Assembly: GCA_030595925.1 (NCBI GenBank)
Contig: JAUVLC010000109.1
Coordinates: forward strand, 1 to 8,120
Length of the DNA stretch: 8,120 bases
Source of the DNA: Clostridia bacterium
Lineage (GTDB): Bacteria > CBDUZB01 > JAGLHV01
Direction of reading: 5' to 3'
This document shows positions 1,121 through 7,184 of this stretch, one piece after another. The translations under genes were made by a program, and so were the position numbers. The stretch's first letter is position 1. Each line of letters begins with the position of its first letter. Below the pieces are notes generated by a model. The model saw nothing but the letters and a program-made list of their open reading frames with translations. It made no database searches and was not told the origin of the DNA.

Positions 1121-2098
1121 ATGTTTCTGGAAAAATATAAAATAGCAGCCAGTTTATTATATATAGTAATTTTTTCCACTATAGGTGTAAATCTTGTTTA
1201 CTCAAGGATTTTTAATATTTCCATTGTAAATAGTCAGAATATAGAGCCCTATAGTATTGCTTTAGAAGGAGTTTTTGCAGTACTACACGAAAAGGGGTAT
1301 GAGGAAAAAACTAATTTAAATATAGGTTATTATGATTTAGAAAGAAGCCTGGAAGAAAATTTTGATGTGGTTGGTGAACTTAAAAATAAAAAACCAGATT
1401 TAATAATAACTCTTGGAACAGATGCCACGAGAAAAATCAAAAAAGAAATTAATTTTATTCCCGTGGTATTTTCTATGGTATTAAATCCCGTAGAAAGTGG
1501 ATTGGTAAAAAGTATTCAATGTTCAGGGAATAATCTTACCGGAGCTTCACTGGATGTTTCCCCCAAAATGCAGTTTGAAGTATTAAAAGAAATTCTTCCG
1601 CAGGTAAAGAAAATAGGGGTGATTTATGATCCCCATAAGACAGGAGATATGATTGAAAGATCTATTCAACCAGCCAGAGAACTGAATTTAAATTTAATTA
1701 AAATTGCCGTTACTTCCCCAAAAGAGGTGCCTAATGCGATTGGAAATCTAATAGAGGAAATGGATGTATTATGGATAATTGCAGATAGTACTGTTGTTAG
1801 CAAATATTCTCTGGAATATATGTTAATGGCTGCTTTAAAAGCTAAAATACCAGTGATGGGATATACTTCTCATATGGTAAGGCTGGGAGCAATATTTTGT
1901 CTGAATTGTGATTATGAAGATATAGGTCGACAGGCAGGGGAGTTATCTTGTGAGATATTGAAAGGGGTTGAACCTAATAGTTTGCCCGTTACTTTACCCA
2001 GGAAGACACACTTAATACTAAATCTTAAAGTTGCCGAGAGATTGGGAGAGGAGATTCCTCTTTCTCTTTTAGAGAAATCTTATAAGATTTTTGAATAA
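1121..2098 (+). CDS. ABC_sub_bind-family periplasmic substrate-binding protein
   Basis: The 325-residue product begins with a basic-hydrophobic segment (residues 5-28, KYKIAASLLYIVIF...) that serves as a signal peptide or anchor; no lipobox Cys follows. The rest is a two-lobed type I periplasmic-binding fold of the ABC_sub_bind family (PF04392, TrpX/YtvP-like). Typical blocks are PDLIITLGTDAT (92-103), IPVVFSMVLNPVESGLV (113-129), NNLTGAS (137-143), KIGVIYDP (164-171), GAIFCLNCDYEDIGRQAGEL (256-275) and LNLKVAERLG (300-309). Family members bind small ligands, often amino acids, or act as ligand sensors. The ligand cannot be told here. The ribosome-binding site before ATG 1121 is weak. A TonB receptor follows 69 bases later, probably in the same transcript. 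No permease or ATPase gene is nearby, so it either uses a distant transporter or works as a receptor. Arginines are mostly AGA/AGG. Confidence 0.87.
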   Translation: MFLEKYKIAASLLYIVIFSTIGVNLVYSRIFNISIVNSQNIEPYSIALEGVFAVLHEKGYEEKTNLNIGYYDLERSLEENFDVVGELKNKKPDLIITLGTDATRKIKKEINFIPVVFSMVLNPVESGLVKSIQCSGNNLTGASLDVSPKMQFEVLKEILPQVKKIGVIYDPHKTGDMIERSIQPARELNLNLIKIAVTSPKEVPNAIGNLIEEMDVLWIIADSTVVSKYSLEYMLMAALKAKIPVMGYTSHMVRLGAIFCLNCDYEDIGRQAGELSCEILKGVEPNSLPVTLPRKTHLILNLKVAERLGEEIPLSLLEKSYKIFE

Positions 2099-2167
2099 AA
2101 AAGGAAAAGAAAGGAGGAAAAAATTTTTTAAAGGCCATTAAAATAAAAAAAAGGAGAAATTTTAAAA

Positions 2168-4039
2168 ATGAAAAAAAATATTATTGAATTTAGTTTAGTA
2201 TGGATTTTGATTATTGTTTTTACATTACCATTGTTTGCCCAGACAGATGATATTCCTCCGGAGTTTTTACTATTTGGAGAGGAAAAAATAATAGTAACCG
2301 CTGCAAGGCATGAACAAAAGATAGGAAAAGCTCCTGCAGCTATTAATGTTATTACAACTGAGGATATTAAAAATTCAGGATTATTAACGGTGGGTGATAT
2401 TTTAAGGTCTCTACCGGGGATAGATGTTAGAAATGCCGGTACAAAATTATATTTAGCCCCTCGAGGATTAGCTGGTACAGTTACAAATAGGGTTATTTGT
2501 TTGGTTGATGGCCGTCCAATTAATACTCCCCTTTATGGAAGTTTTTTTCCTGATTTAACCTTGCCCCTGGTTAATATAAAGAGGATTGAGGTAATTAGAG
2601 GTCCTGGTTCAGCAATTTATGGAGCCAATGCTTTTGCAGGAGTAATTAATATAATTACTAAATCACCGGAAGATGTTGATGGTTTTGAAATTTCTGTATC
2701 AGGGGGAGAGTTTTCTACTCAACTTCATAAGGTAAGTTTAGGAGGAAAAAGCGAAAAAATCGCTGGTTTGTTTACCGGCCGTTGGTATAAAACCGATGGG
2801 TCAAAACTGATTGCGGATAACACCGATTTTGAAAATTACAATGTTTATGGAAAGATGAAAGTTTCTGATTTTACCTTATCTTTTGGTCATCATGAAACAG
2901 ACCGCGGTTTGCCGGGTAACGAAATAAGGCCTACTCCTGCGAACACTGAAGAGGTAAAAGAAAGTTTTGTAGATGGCATAGGTAATATAGAACTAAATTC
3001 TGAGATGGATTTAATGGTTAGAGGGTACATAAATGATCGCGAAAATGTACTGGATATGAATGGTTTGAAGACCGTTAATGAAACCGTTCTGGGAGGAGAA
3101 ATACAGCATAACTGGCAGATAAATCCCAGTAATCTGTTTATTTGTGGTGTAGATTTGCGTAATGATGTGGCCGATTCAGAAGAAGCGTTAGGCGGAAAGC
3201 ATGAGACTACAAATACGGCGATTTATTTACAAAATGAATGTCGACTCATTGATAAACTAATTGTTATTCTGGGAGGAAGGTATGATGCTCATTTTGTTTA
3301 TGGAGATCTGATTAATCCAAGGGTTGGTGCGGTTTATAATTTAGGCAGGAGTGTTCTTAAAACCTCTTATGGCGAAGCATTCAGAGCACCTACTTTTGTT
3401 GAGTTGTATGCTGATACGTGGCACGGACCAATAATGCATATGGTTGGGAACAAAGAACTTAAACCTGAAAAGATAAAGACTTATGAAATAGGATTAGGTC
3501 ATAAGTTTACTCGCAGTCTGGAGGGTGAAATAAATGCTTTTTATAACAAAACAAGCGATTTAATCGCTATGAGAACGAACGTGGTGATTCTTCCTGGCCC
3601 GCCTATACCCGTTACGGAATTTGGTTATGAGAACAAAGACAAAATAGAAACAAAAGGGTTTGAAGTAGAGATAAAAAATGAACTTTTTTCTAACAATCTC
3701 AAGGGATTTATTAATTATTCGTATCAAGAAGCCAAAGATGAAGAAACCGGGGAAGATTTGGATTATGCGCCTAATCATAAATTTAATTTAGGATTAAATC
3801 TCAAAGTGACTAATGCTTGTATGGTTAATACCATTTTTCATTATGTGGGTGAAAGAAATTATTCTGCAGGAGAATTGGATGCTTACACAGTTACAGATAG
3901 TAAATTAAGTGCAAAAGTATTAGAAGATTTGGAACTATCCATATCTATCTATAACATTTTTGACGAACGATATGAAGAAACAAAATATTATCCAATGCCA
4001 GGCAGAAGCTGGCTAGCCGAAGTAGGTTATAAGTTTTAA
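2168..4039 (+). CDS. TonB-dependent outer-membrane receptor
   Basis: The 623-residue protein has a signal peptide (1-24, cut near LFA|QT), a TonB-box-like EKIIVTA (39-45) and a plug domain (about 50-165). The plug contains VGDILRSLPGIDV (75-87) and the family hallmark RIEVIRGPGSAIYGANAFAG (139-158). A 22-strand barrel follows, with the conserved SYGEAFRAPTF block (400-410) and LKPEKIKTYEIGLG. The C-terminus GYKF ends in the aromatic residue used by the BAM machinery. It would import a scarce ligand such as a siderophore, cobalamin or another metal chelate using TonB energy. The short barrel and plug style resemble BtuB/CirA-type receptors, but the ligand is unknown. AAGGAG (2151-2156) sits 11 bases before ATG 2168, and a second AAGGAGG lies at 2111-2117 with no start codon in range. 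No cobalamin or other riboswitch is seen. It is probably cotranscribed with the upstream binding protein. Confidence 0.93.
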   Translation: MKKNIIEFSLVWILIIVFTLPLFAQTDDIPPEFLLFGEEKIIVTAARHEQKIGKAPAAINVITTEDIKNSGLLTVGDILRSLPGIDVRNAGTKLYLAPRGLAGTVTNRVICLVDGRPINTPLYGSFFPDLTLPLVNIKRIEVIRGPGSAIYGANAFAGVINIITKSPEDVDGFEISVSGGEFSTQLHKVSLGGKSEKIAGLFTGRWYKTDGSKLIADNTDFENYNVYGKMKVSDFTLSFGHHETDRGLPGNEIRPTPANTEEVKESFVDGIGNIELNSEMDLMVRGYINDRENVLDMNGLKTVNETVLGGEIQHNWQINPSNLFICGVDLRNDVADSEEALGGKHETTNTAIYLQNECRLIDKLIVILGGRYDAHFVYGDLINPRVGAVYNLGRSVLKTSYGEAFRAPTFVELYADTWHGPIMHMVGNKELKPEKIKTYEIGLGHKFTRSLEGEINAFYNKTSDLIAMRTNVVILPGPPIPVTEFGYENKDKIETKGFEVEIKNELFSNNLKGFINYSYQEAKDEETGEDLDYAPNHKFNLGLNLKVTNACMVNTIFHYVGERNYSAGELDAYTVTDSKLSAKVLEDLELSISIYNIFDERYEETKYYPMPGRSWLAEVGYKF

Positions 4040-4087
4040 GAAAAAAGAGGGGGGTTTTGGAGAAGGGAAGGATGATGTTGTTAAATA

Positions 4088-4379
4088 GTTAAATAACTAT
4101 TGACATAACTTTGCTTAAAGACTTAATCAATCTGATAGCCAAAAAATTAGTAGTTGAAGTAGTAGATTAAAAGGAAATAGAAGGGGTGAAAAAATAGCTA
4201 AAGCCAGAGCTTTGATATTATACATCGGGCAAAGGTATTTGGGGGAGCAGGGCATTGTAATAGGCTTAGAATTAAACAAGAACAGTGACAGTACAAGTAT
4301 AGCATATAATTGAGGGAAGAAAATAATAGAGAAGGATGCAGGGACAAAAAGTATTCTTAATGACATTTTAACTATTTAA
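4088..4379 (+). pseudogene. Y1/REP-type transposase C-terminus relic (copy A2, uninterrupted)
   Basis: This is the same relic as 141-248 plus 834-1048, but continuous. It reads DITLLKDLINLIAKKLVVEV from GAC 4102, then shifts by one lost base near 4165. It continues as LKGNRRGEKIAKARALILYI, then GQRYLGEQGIVIGLELNKNS, meets TGA at 4311-4313 in place of the CGA of copy A1, and finishes IIEKDAGTKSILNDILTI with TAA 4377-4379. The helix-turn-helix and KARAL motif point to the DnaA-like C-terminal domain of a Y1 (PF01797-type) transposase. The catalytic domain is missing and the two copies carry different disabling changes. It accounts for most of the first half of the 599-base gap between the TonB receptor and the PPOX gene; no intact gene is seen there on either strand. 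Confidence 0.72.
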
Positions 4380-4422
4380 TAATGTTATATAATAAAAAAT
4401 GTCCCTCAAAACCTATAAGAAA

Positions 4423-4610
4423 TAGTTTAAAATCCATTTTAATAACACTTTATCAATTTGTGCATCCACTCTATAACTACTAAATATTATATGTTTTGTC
4501 GTCGGTCAAGAGAAAAAAATAAAGAAGTTGACAGTAACTCTTTTTTTTTATAGTATGTAATATAGTTTTATGAAAATACATTAACCAGATAATTATAATG
4601 TTAGATGTAA
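4423..4610 (+). repeat. Promoter-carrying direct repeat, copy B1
   Basis: This matches 6942-7135 at roughly 80-85% identity judged by eye, including the identical 16-base block ATATGTTTTGTCGTCG (4489-4504 and 7009-7024). It contains a TTGACA promoter with an A-rich stretch upstream, and ends about 28 bases before the PPOX start codon. It shows no convincing coding frame on either strand and no terminal inverted repeats. It lies in the same position relative to two unrelated genes, so it behaves as a transplanted 5' regulatory region. Confidence 0.8.
4528..4556 (+). promoter_or_regulatory. Probable sigma-70-type promoter for the PPOX gene
   Basis: TTGACA at 4528-4533 is followed by TATAGT at 4549-4554 (15-base spacer) or TAGTAT at 4551-4556 (17-base spacer). 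Relative to the B2 copy, two bases are missing from the T-rich spacer, so this copy is likely the weaker promoter. A-rich sequence at 4511-4525 could act as an UP element. Transcription would start near 4561, leaving a leader of about 75-80 bases. Confidence 0.6.
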
Positions 4611-4638
4611 AATAATTAAAAAATGGAGGGGGGTCAAA

Positions 4639-5061
4639 ATGACTAAAGAAGAAATGATAAAATTTATGAATGAAAATCTTACTTGTTACTTTGCCACTGT
4701 AGAAAATAATCAGCCCCACGTTCGCGGGATGATGACTTATAAGGCAGATGAAAATGGTATAATTTTTCATACAGGAAGCACTAAAGATTTATATAGTCAA
4801 ATTAAAAATACCCCTGCAGTAGAAGTATGTTTTTTTAATCCACAAAGTAATATACAGCTCCGAGTAAAAGGCAAAGCTGTTATTAAAGAAGAAATAGAAT
4901 TAAAGAAGGAAATAGTGGAAAACAGGTCTTTTTTAAAGCCATGGGTAGAAAAAATGGGATATGATATGTTAATTGTTTTTCAAATAGTCAATTGTGTTGC
5001 GCATACATGGACATTTGAAACTAATTTTTCACCTAAAGAATATGTCAAAATTAGCATCTAA
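4639..5061 (+). CDS. PPOX-fold (pyridoxamine 5'-phosphate oxidase-like) flavin-binding protein
   Basis: The 140-residue soluble protein has the split-barrel layout of small PPOX-like proteins: an N-terminal helix (MTKEEMIKFMNENL), then CYFATVENNQPHVRGMM (16-32), GIIFHTGSTKDLYSQIKNTP (40-59), VEVCFFNP (61-68) and QLRVKGKAVI (73-82). Family members bind FMN or F420 and reduce or oxidise small molecules. Those of this size are mostly uncharacterised and are not true PdxH enzymes. No signal peptide is present, so it is cytoplasmic. GGAGG (4625-4629) lies nine bases before ATG 4639. Its promoter sits in repeat B1. The downstream 79-residue gene begins 95 bases later with a different base composition, so sharing a transcript is possible but a functional link is not shown. 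Confidence 0.87.
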   Translation: MTKEEMIKFMNENLTCYFATVENNQPHVRGMMTYKADENGIIFHTGSTKDLYSQIKNTPAVEVCFFNPQSNIQLRVKGKAVIKEEIELKKEIVENRSFLKPWVEKMGYDMLIVFQIVNCVAHTWTFETNFSPKEYVKISI

Positions 5062-5067
5062 TAATTC

Positions 5068-5101
5068 GCTGCAGCGGATTTTACTACGCGTCTATGCCGC
5101 T
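5068..5101 (+). other. Inverted repeat between the PPOX and 79-residue genes
   Basis: CGCTGCAGCG (5068-5077) is a perfect 10-base palindrome, and AGCGG (5073-5077) can also pair with CCGCT (5097-5101). GATTTT follows the palindrome, only seven bases after the PPOX stop. It could be a weak terminator or the edge of an inserted block, since it is more GC-rich than the sequence before it. Neither reading is firm. Confidence 0.25.
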
Positions 5102-5156
5102 TTGTAAAACCGATGAAAGCAAATAATAAGTTTAGTTAGAAAAGGAGGAATTAATC

Positions 5157-5396
5157 ATGATAAAGACCATAAAAGAATACTCTGTGTTTCATTACACAAA
5201 CGGTACAACCCGTATCAATGTGTATTTTTCTGACGACACCTGGGATTATTACACCGACCTTGATTCAACACGAGCGATACTACTTTTAGATATACTGCGA
5301 AATGAGAAACCTGTAAAATGGACAGAAGGTGCCAAGACTTTGTGGGCTGGACGTGAGCCTGTTGGCGAAGGTGAGAAGAAAAGTATTTTTGGCTAA
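5157..5396 (+). CDS. Free-standing copy of the N-terminal module of the LGFP/peptidase protein
   Basis: This 79-residue protein aligns along nearly its full length with residues 1-73 of the 475-residue protein encoded just downstream. Shared blocks are YTNGTTRIN/YANNTARIN, a TDLD motif, LRNEKPV and LWAGREPVGE. The last block is almost identical in DNA too, with an offset of about 270 bases, so the pair looks like a tandem partial duplication. Predicted structure is several short strands, a helix (STRAILLLDILRNE) and a final hairpin. No signal peptide, membrane segment or catalytic motif is visible. A strong AAAGGAGG (5141-5148) precedes ATG 5157, which argues that it is translated. It ends in KKSIFG and stops 26 bases before the next start. 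Function is unknown; it could be a partner, decoy or assembly piece for the larger protein, or a duplication by-product. Confidence 0.75.
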   Translation: MIKTIKEYSVFHYTNGTTRINVYFSDDTWDYYTDLDSTRAILLLDILRNEKPVKWTEGAKTLWAGREPVGEGEKKSIFG

Positions 5397-5422
5397 TAAA
5401 AAATATTTTTAGGGAGGGAACT

Positions 5423-6850
5423 GTGAGTCGAGTCGAAATAAAGAAGTATTCTATTTTCACATACGCGAACAACACCGCCCGCATCAACTTATATTTAAAG
5501 GATGGAAATGAAGCGCATTTAACAGATCTAGACCAGATGCGAGCTCGTTTGCTTATCAATATTCTACGCAATGAAAAACCTGTCTATTGGAATCCGCAAT
5601 CCGCAACCTTGTGGGCTGGACGTGAGCCCGTTGGCGAAGAAGAATCGTATGGATTGACGCCGATTGCTATTAAATACATTTCCTTGGGAGGTGAAGATTC
5701 TTTTTTAGGAAAACCAACTACAAAAGAGGAAATGTGTGCCGATGGGATGGGTGCATATCGGCACTACGAACACGGATCTATTTTTTGGCATCCTGCTGCG
5801 GGTGCCCATGAAATTCATGGTGCAATTAGAGCAAAATATCGCGACTGGAATTGGGAAAGGAGTGCACTTGGCTATCCTGTAACAGATGAATTAGATACAC
5901 CGGATAGTGGGAGATATAACCGATTTCGGAAAGGGCTTATCGTTTGGACGCAAGAATCAGGAGCACAAGGCATTTGTGAAGATGGCATTAATTTAGACGA
6001 ACGCGTAGACTTTGAGCGATGGACAAATACGACATATGGAAATCTTAAGGACTTTTATGAAAAAGTACGAAAGTGGACTTATATTGATTTAAAATACAAT
6101 ATAAATACGCAAACCGGAGAAAAGCGATATACAGGATGGCAGGTTGCTAATTTTCGGAGTGGTAATTACATGCTAAATGGGTATGAACTCTCCAGCGGTG
6201 AGCGTTTAGTTATCACAGTCGCACAGGTCTTACTAATGCAATGGCATTTAAGAGACCTGAAAAACCATGGTGGCGAGCGACGTGAACAGATAAGTCGATA
6301 TTTTCATAGTAGGCGGTGTTTTAAACAAAGGCAGGTCTTAAAGTGGCGCGGCTGGCGTTATGGATACAGGTGGGTTTGGAAATACAACAGATGGTGTAGC
6401 GAATTTGTTTCTTACGTCTATGCCAGAGCTGATATGTCTACTTCCCTGGGCAAAAAACAATGTTTCTTTTGCCACAATATAGGAAGTTATAAGAAAATTG
6501 GTACGTGTATATCTAATGTGGGATATTTTGTTAAATACTTTAAGAATAGGAACAGATACAAAAGCATAAATCACTATCGAGACAATAAGATACCCCTTTC
6601 CCTGGGCGACTATCTATGTCGGTATGACGGCAGACGCCCATGCCATCCAAAAGGTGTCCAGGGTCATTCCATGCTGGTACTGGGGTTTGAAGAAAATCAA
6701 ACAAACTTTCTAAAAAGTAAAATTTTTTACATCAACGGCAATTCCGGTAGCGGAGCACCAGAGGAAAACAACCGATATGTTAAATATTATGATAAATCCT
6801 TAGATGATAGAGATCTTACAGGTGTAGGTGAAAAAACCGTATCTTTTTAG
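5423..6850 (+). CDS. LGFP-repeat protein with predicted NlpC/P60- or CHAP-like cysteine peptidase domain
   Basis: The 475-residue product has three parts. Residues 1-73 are the module shared with the 79-residue neighbour. Residues about 85-186 contain LGFP-type repeats (PF08310): FLGKPTTKEE, YRHYEHGSIFWHPAAGAHEI, HGAIRAKYRD, LGYPVTDE and RYNRFRKGLIVW. LGFP repeats usually attach enzymes to cell walls. Residues about 190-475 look like a papain-fold cysteine peptidase or amidase: WCSEFVSYVY (Cys325), LSLGDY (392-397), GHSMLVLGFE (His415) and YINGN (Asn438 or Asn440) supply a Cys-His-Asn set. Nine cysteines include a CFFC pair (347-350). The start is GTG 5423 after GGAGG (5413-5417). No signal peptide or transmembrane helix is seen, which is odd for an LGFP protein. 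Arginines are mostly CGN, unlike the binding-protein gene. Substrate (peptidoglycan or protein) is unknown. Confidence 0.82.
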   Translation: MSRVEIKKYSIFTYANNTARINLYLKDGNEAHLTDLDQMRARLLINILRNEKPVYWNPQSATLWAGREPVGEEESYGLTPIAIKYISLGGEDSFLGKPTTKEEMCADGMGAYRHYEHGSIFWHPAAGAHEIHGAIRAKYRDWNWERSALGYPVTDELDTPDSGRYNRFRKGLIVWTQESGAQGICEDGINLDERVDFERWTNTTYGNLKDFYEKVRKWTYIDLKYNINTQTGEKRYTGWQVANFRSGNYMLNGYELSSGERLVITVAQVLLMQWHLRDLKNHGGERREQISRYFHSRRCFKQRQVLKWRGWRYGYRWVWKYNRWCSEFVSYVYARADMSTSLGKKQCFFCHNIGSYKKIGTCISNVGYFVKYFKNRNRYKSINHYRDNKIPLSLGDYLCRYDGRRPCHPKGVQGHSMLVLGFEENQTNFLKSKIFYINGNSGSGAPEENNRYVKYYDKSLDDRDLTGVGEKTVSF

Positions 6851-6941: not shown

Positions 6942-7135
6942 TAGCTTAAAATCCATTTTAATAACTCCTTTATCAATTTATGCATCTACTGTATAATTAT
7001 TAAATATCATATGTTTTGTCGTCGAACAAGAGAAAAAAAATAAAAAAAATTGACAGAAACTCTTTTGTCTTTTATAATATGTAGTGTAGTTTTGTGAAAA
7101 TAGAGTAATCAAATAATGTATAATGTTAGGTGTAA
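6942..7135 (+). repeat. Promoter-carrying direct repeat, copy B2
   Basis: This is the second copy of the 4423-4610 repeat in the same orientation, about 2.5 kb downstream. It fills most of the 334 bases between the peptidase gene and the lipoprotein start. The two copies bracket the PPOX gene and the two module genes. Bases 6851-6941, just before it, hold no gene; a weak imperfect dyad near 6921-6935 is followed by TATTTT. Confidence 0.8.
7050..7078 (+). promoter_or_regulatory. Consensus sigma-70 promoter for the lipoprotein gene
   Basis: TTGACA (7050-7055) and TATAAT (7073-7078) are separated by exactly 17 bases, a perfect vegetative promoter. An A-rich stretch (7031-7049) lies directly upstream as a possible UP element. 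Transcription would begin near 7085, about 100 bases before GTG 7185. It lies inside repeat B2. Confidence 0.85.
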
Positions 7136-7184
7136 TTGATTTAAATAAATGATTAATAAACAAAAGAGGAGAGATGAGATACAA

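Follow-up and report, generated by a model that had tools for sequence, protein, structure and literature searches.

The gene at positions 5423-6850 encodes a 475-residue protein, P0001, in which a module, LGFP repeats and a CHAP-like, putative cysteine hydrolase domain follow one another. We give about an even chance (probability roughly 0.5) to the reading that P0001 is an end-to-end fusion of a normally free-standing module with a signal-less LGFP-CHAP wall hydrolase, the module serving for docking and pairing with P0002, its free paralogue. Computation yielded the architecture, a predicted fold of the module, the absence of a signal, the standing of P0001 as the sole fusion found and the profile match of its C-terminus to CHAP-like domains. 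A first-pass annotation had described a three-part protein with a shared N-terminal module, no signal peptide and a wall-hydrolase-like C-terminus with Cys325, His415 and Asn440 as candidate residues; each of these proposals was supported by the family, export-signal and profile analyses below, and structure prediction of the module gave a confident fold.

The window, that is, the whole stretch of 8,120 bp that was analysed, is an entire contig (C121) of a metagenome-assembled genome of 2.6 Mb and 97% completeness. It belongs to that genome, since a dispersed repeat with an intergenic copy at 4400-4640 matches seven of its contigs. The sampled set holds two congeners, both of which lack the P0001 gene, and the remaining sampled relatives share the domain only. 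Besides the genes considered here, the window encodes proteins annotated as Yip1, ABC_sub_bind, a TonB receptor and a PNPOx-like protein, as well as an unknown lipoprotein-like protein; no phage genes or lysis cassette were found among the window genes around P0001.

Intergenic direct repeats of ~200 bp (4423-4623 and 6942-7151) stand on either side of a block made up of the PNPOx-like gene and the two module ORFs. That they are the ends of a mobile element is not favoured, since this dispersed repeat matches seven contigs. Another family of intergenic repeats is present at 140-247, 836-1054 and 4087-4385, with copies 85-93% identical, and a 72 nt direct repeat, 88% identical, lies close to the contig end (7750-7821 and 8034-8105).

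Two tandem genes and the missing export signal

The interval 5157-6850 holds two tandem forward-strand ORFs, not one, spaced by 26 nt. The first (5157..5396) has a strong Shine-Dalgarno sequence and encodes P0002, a free-standing module protein of 79 aa; the second (5423..6850) begins with GTG, is likewise preceded by a good Shine-Dalgarno sequence and encodes P0001. P0002 is 58% identical to residues 1-77 of P0001, and 58-64% identical to the other close members of the module family. At this base composition, a 475-codon frame would stay open by chance with p ~2e-15.

The start of P0001 is well placed, because its module relatives begin at the same point. Above the GTG the frame is open for just ~16 codons before a stop is reached, which rules out an overlooked upstream start that would add a signal peptide. 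Within the first 45 residues there is no hydrophobic core: the most hydrophobic 11-mer averages 0.1 on the Kyte-Doolittle scale, while two window proteins with signal-like N-termini reach 3.0-3.1. Both ORFs have 40-41% GC, whereas the window as a whole has 35%; as a sign of acquisition this is only a modest hint, since the Yip1 and lipoprotein-like genes have a similar GC content.

A free-standing module family

The N-terminal module of P0001 (residues 1-77, 5423..5653, forward strand; ILRNEKP...REPVGEEE) was delimited by family alignment. A pattern-plus-tblastn scan of GTDB genomes gave 39 module loci, and about 40 genomes of bacteria and archaea encode the module as a protein on its own; its bacterial sources include Bacteroidota, Cyanobacteriota, Chloroflexota (Anaerolineae), Pseudomonadota, Myxococcales, Sedimentisphaerales and Neomarinimicrobiota, and its archaeal ones Helarchaeota, ANME-2 and Bathyarchaeota. 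In every complete locus the module is the end of the protein, which stops at most ~15 residues past the GEGE motif. A few frames are longer because they were extended upstream to the earliest possible start, and one locus (L013) is cut by the end of its contig. By profile search the module turned up in 7 of 386 genomes; the open frames that carry it span 86-150 codons, except for that of the window, which has 491. No family matched in Pfam, NCBIfam, PHROGs or PADLOC, no copy was found in viral contigs and phages, and no neighbour is conserved across lineages, the gene contexts being unrelated.

Eight columns of the family alignment are invariant (Y9, L48, R49, N50, E51, P53, E68 and G71). An AlphaFold2 model from 36 sequences predicts a beta3-alpha-beta2 fold with a pLDDT of 89.7. 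Structural searches gave nothing significant (best Foldseek E 0.08 in the PDB and 0.04 among viral structures; best VIA-align Z 5.3), and the PH-like and OB-like relatives suggested by them, with Z at most 5.3, are too weak to be interpretable.

Several observations concern the surroundings of individual loci. Two module genes also occur in tandem at a cyanobacterial locus (L018). A gene for a TPR-nucleotide cyclase lies near the module gene at five Bacteroidota loci (L014, L016, L020, L022 and L027), and a CHAT gene is next door at L048. At L008 (1841-3703, genome G057) small unknown proteins without a Pfam match are encoded behind the module gene, one of them with a likely membrane segment.

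The first-pass annotation had suggested that the module may be a targeting piece, with homologues that might be fused to other toxin-like domains. It does not target any toxin family that could be recognised: the relatives are free-standing in unrelated contexts, and no other fusion was found among the 39 loci or in the profile search of 386 genomes, which leaves P0001 as the only one. The module family and this single known fusion are new elements.

The putative hydrolase part and the junction

Directly behind the module lie the LGFP repeats (~residues 78-185, 5654..5977, forward strand). P0001 matches PF08310 with two repeats at an E value of 1.5e-29 and 102.6 bits, against a curated cut-off of 22, and is thus an LGFP protein; the same part matches the Corynebacterium glutamicum PS1 structures 6swz/6sx4 at E 3e-20. 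At E 1e-6, LGFP was found in 5 of 386 sampled genomes, the source genome counted. Several of the other LGFP genomes place the repeats beside sequence that, from reading it, we take to be amidase-like, M23-like or transpeptidase-like, and LGFP plus a wall hydrolase is therefore an ordinary, already known combination. In MytA, such repeats interact with peptidoglycan-arabinogalactan (PMC11299179), and actinophage endolysins carry LGFP (PMC9671378). The linker that follows in P0001 (~residues 186-299, 5978..6319, forward strand) has no family match and no PDB match.

The C-terminal domain (~residues 300-475, 6320..6847, forward strand) was compared by hhalign with a profile of five CHAP-type domains (L081, L084-L087) found through one CHAP member. 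The alignment to residues 300-460 scored 40.1, with a probability of 87%, whereas the best of 150 shuffles scored 29.6, the +1 frame 10.7 and residues 1-200 of P0001 11.0. In this alignment Cys325 (6395-6397, in WCS) falls on the WC column, His415 (6665-6667, in GHS) on the histidine column and Asn440 (6740-6742, in NGNS) on the GN column. The comparison places the C-terminal part with CHAP-like peptidoglycan hydrolases, the putative Cys-His-Asn assignment resting on the profile alignment.

The domain matched no curated family; for CHAP itself (PF05257), no match above the curated cut-off was obtained, none being listed at E values up to 10 and none in the source genome (G000). We therefore call it CHAP-like and not a CHAP member. 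No convincing tblastn relative of the C-terminal part was found in the 386 genomes, phages or plasmids; matches at E 0.003-0.008 were short, some with stops, and were treated as chance. Neither the full P0001 nor its C-terminal domain had relatives in the viral and genome collections. A single-sequence AlphaFold2 model of the whole protein had a pLDDT of 33 and is useless for residue geometry.

Between ~6240 and 6600 the codon scores are poor in frame 0 and favour frame +1. Compensating frameshifts are disfavoured as an explanation, given that frame +1 has stops and gives no CHAP match (score 10.7), whereas the order of the motifs is preserved in frame 0. This part may be of foreign origin or partly decayed.

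A second LGFP gene, decayed and without the module, lies on another contig of the same genome (C136, L009; ~1840-2190, minus strand). It is frameshifted, shows 62-64% identity, carries the same linker motif and has its own ATG directly ahead of the repeat. The junction between module and LGFP in P0001 falls where the free-standing relatives end and where this decayed gene begins, and we conclude that two complete units were joined. The joining may also have been a recent accident, in which a module gene lost its stop and ran into an LGFP-CHAP gene, leaving a product that is decaying or whose fusion has no selected function; a one-codon assembly error would be indistinguishable from it. The fusion was seen once, TCG and TAT at the junction would each become a stop through a single base change, the LGFP paralogue is a pseudogene and the codon use of P0001 is atypical, all of which would suit such an event. 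However, the 1425 nt frame stays open, the motif order is retained to its end and the Shine-Dalgarno sequence is intact, and we regard this history as unlikely.

A proposed docked wall hydrolase, its rivals and known systems

In the fusion model that we prefer, glycan of the cell wall would be bound by the LGFP repeats, while the CHAP-like domain would cleave peptidoglycan through Cys325, His415 and Asn440. Having neither a Sec nor a Tat signal, P0001 would stay in the cytoplasm until lysis or a non-Sec release, its action then resembling that of an endolysin or an injected hydrolase. The module would be a folded docking domain, most simply one that pairs with its own kind, and P0002, encoded just upstream, would be its partner, which could hold, recruit or load the enzyme.

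This model is supported by the LGFP match and the CHAP-like profile match with its three residues on conserved columns; by a module that is free-standing in diverse bacteria and archaea and ends near GEGE, where LGFP begins; by the decayed module-less LGFP gene that starts right at the repeat; by the tandem arrangement of module genes 26 nt apart and the confident fold of the module; and by the occurrence of LGFP together with different wall-enzyme domains elsewhere, both in other genomes and in actinophage endolysins. It is weakened by a C-terminal domain that has no curated family and no convincing tblastn relative, by codon scores at ~6240-6600 that favour frame +1, and by the single instance, both congeners being without the fusion. 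A bolder form of the proposal, to which we give little credence, is that bacteria and archaea share, in the ILRNEKP...EPVGEGE family, a docking domain that associates with itself and has not been described before, and that here holds or loads a wall hydrolase via its free paralogue.

P0001 could instead work inside the cell in conflict or signalling, with the module as a homotypic adaptor, P0002 as its free partner, the C-terminal domain as a papain-like protease or amidase and the LGFP repeats for recognition. Effector-associated-domain conflict systems likewise set a free adaptor beside an effector that carries its module, the TPR-cyclase genes near five Bacteroidota loci and the CHAT gene near one would be in keeping with such a role, and so would the missing export signal. 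However, the 8 kb contig encodes no NTPase, sensor or other partner, PADLOC gave no match, and the LGFP repeats studied to date act on cell-wall material (PMC11299179); we hold this role to be quite improbable.

Delivery by a contractile apparatus, raised in the first-pass annotation, would make P0001 the cargo of a contractile injection system, with the module as loading tag and LGFP-CHAP as a payload against competitors' walls; the genome does contain an eCIS-like cluster of tail tube gp19, contractile sheath and Pvc16_N genes (C7, L094; 327-3568, at a contig end), P0001 has no Sec signal, and EAT10, an eCIS-associated predicted peptidoglycan hydrolase, has been tested before (PMC8213781), but the cluster is on a different contig from P0001 (both contigs being fragments), none of the 39 module loci (464 kb) holds relatives of the tube, sheath or cap genes and a mostly stand-alone protein is ill-suited to be a loading tag, so that we consider this very unlikely. 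On the same contig the cluster is followed by a gene for a Fungal_lectin-like protein (3796-5670). The ranking of P0001 as the leading candidate for an undescribed system stands in part: the module family and the fusion are new, but the combination of LGFP with a wall hydrolase is known and no delivery system could be linked to it.

The fusion may give the first functional handle on an unnamed module family with a wide bacterial and archaeal spread and near-invariant polar motifs. It also places LGFP outside the mycolic-acid actinobacteria in which these repeats have been studied, in a poorly sampled bacterial lineage that has a TonB-type outer-membrane receptor; if true, the docking reading of the fusion would mean that a wall enzyme lacking a signal can be controlled or delivered in a new way.

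Compared with known systems, P0002 and P0001 resemble effector-associated-domain conflict systems in that a small free module adjoins a putative effector with the same module; however, the locus has no NTPase, sensor or protease partner and the module has no library family. P0001 is comparable to eCIS-delivered hydrolases such as EAT10 (PMC8213781) in being a predicted wall hydrolase that lacks a Sec signal and whose genome contains eCIS-type genes; its gene is on another contig than their cluster. With the CHAP and NlpC-P60 cysteine amidases and peptidases it shares the WC, GD, H, GN motif order and a profile match, but it remains below every curated cut-off and is a sequence orphan in the collections searched. 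The LGFP envelope enzymes, C. glutamicum PS1 (6swz/6sx4) and actinophage LysA, also combine LGFP with an envelope enzyme. Those seen in other genomes either carry an export signal or are endolysins of phages in which LGFP follows the enzyme, whereas P0001 carries its repeats ahead of the CHAP-like domain and behind a new module.
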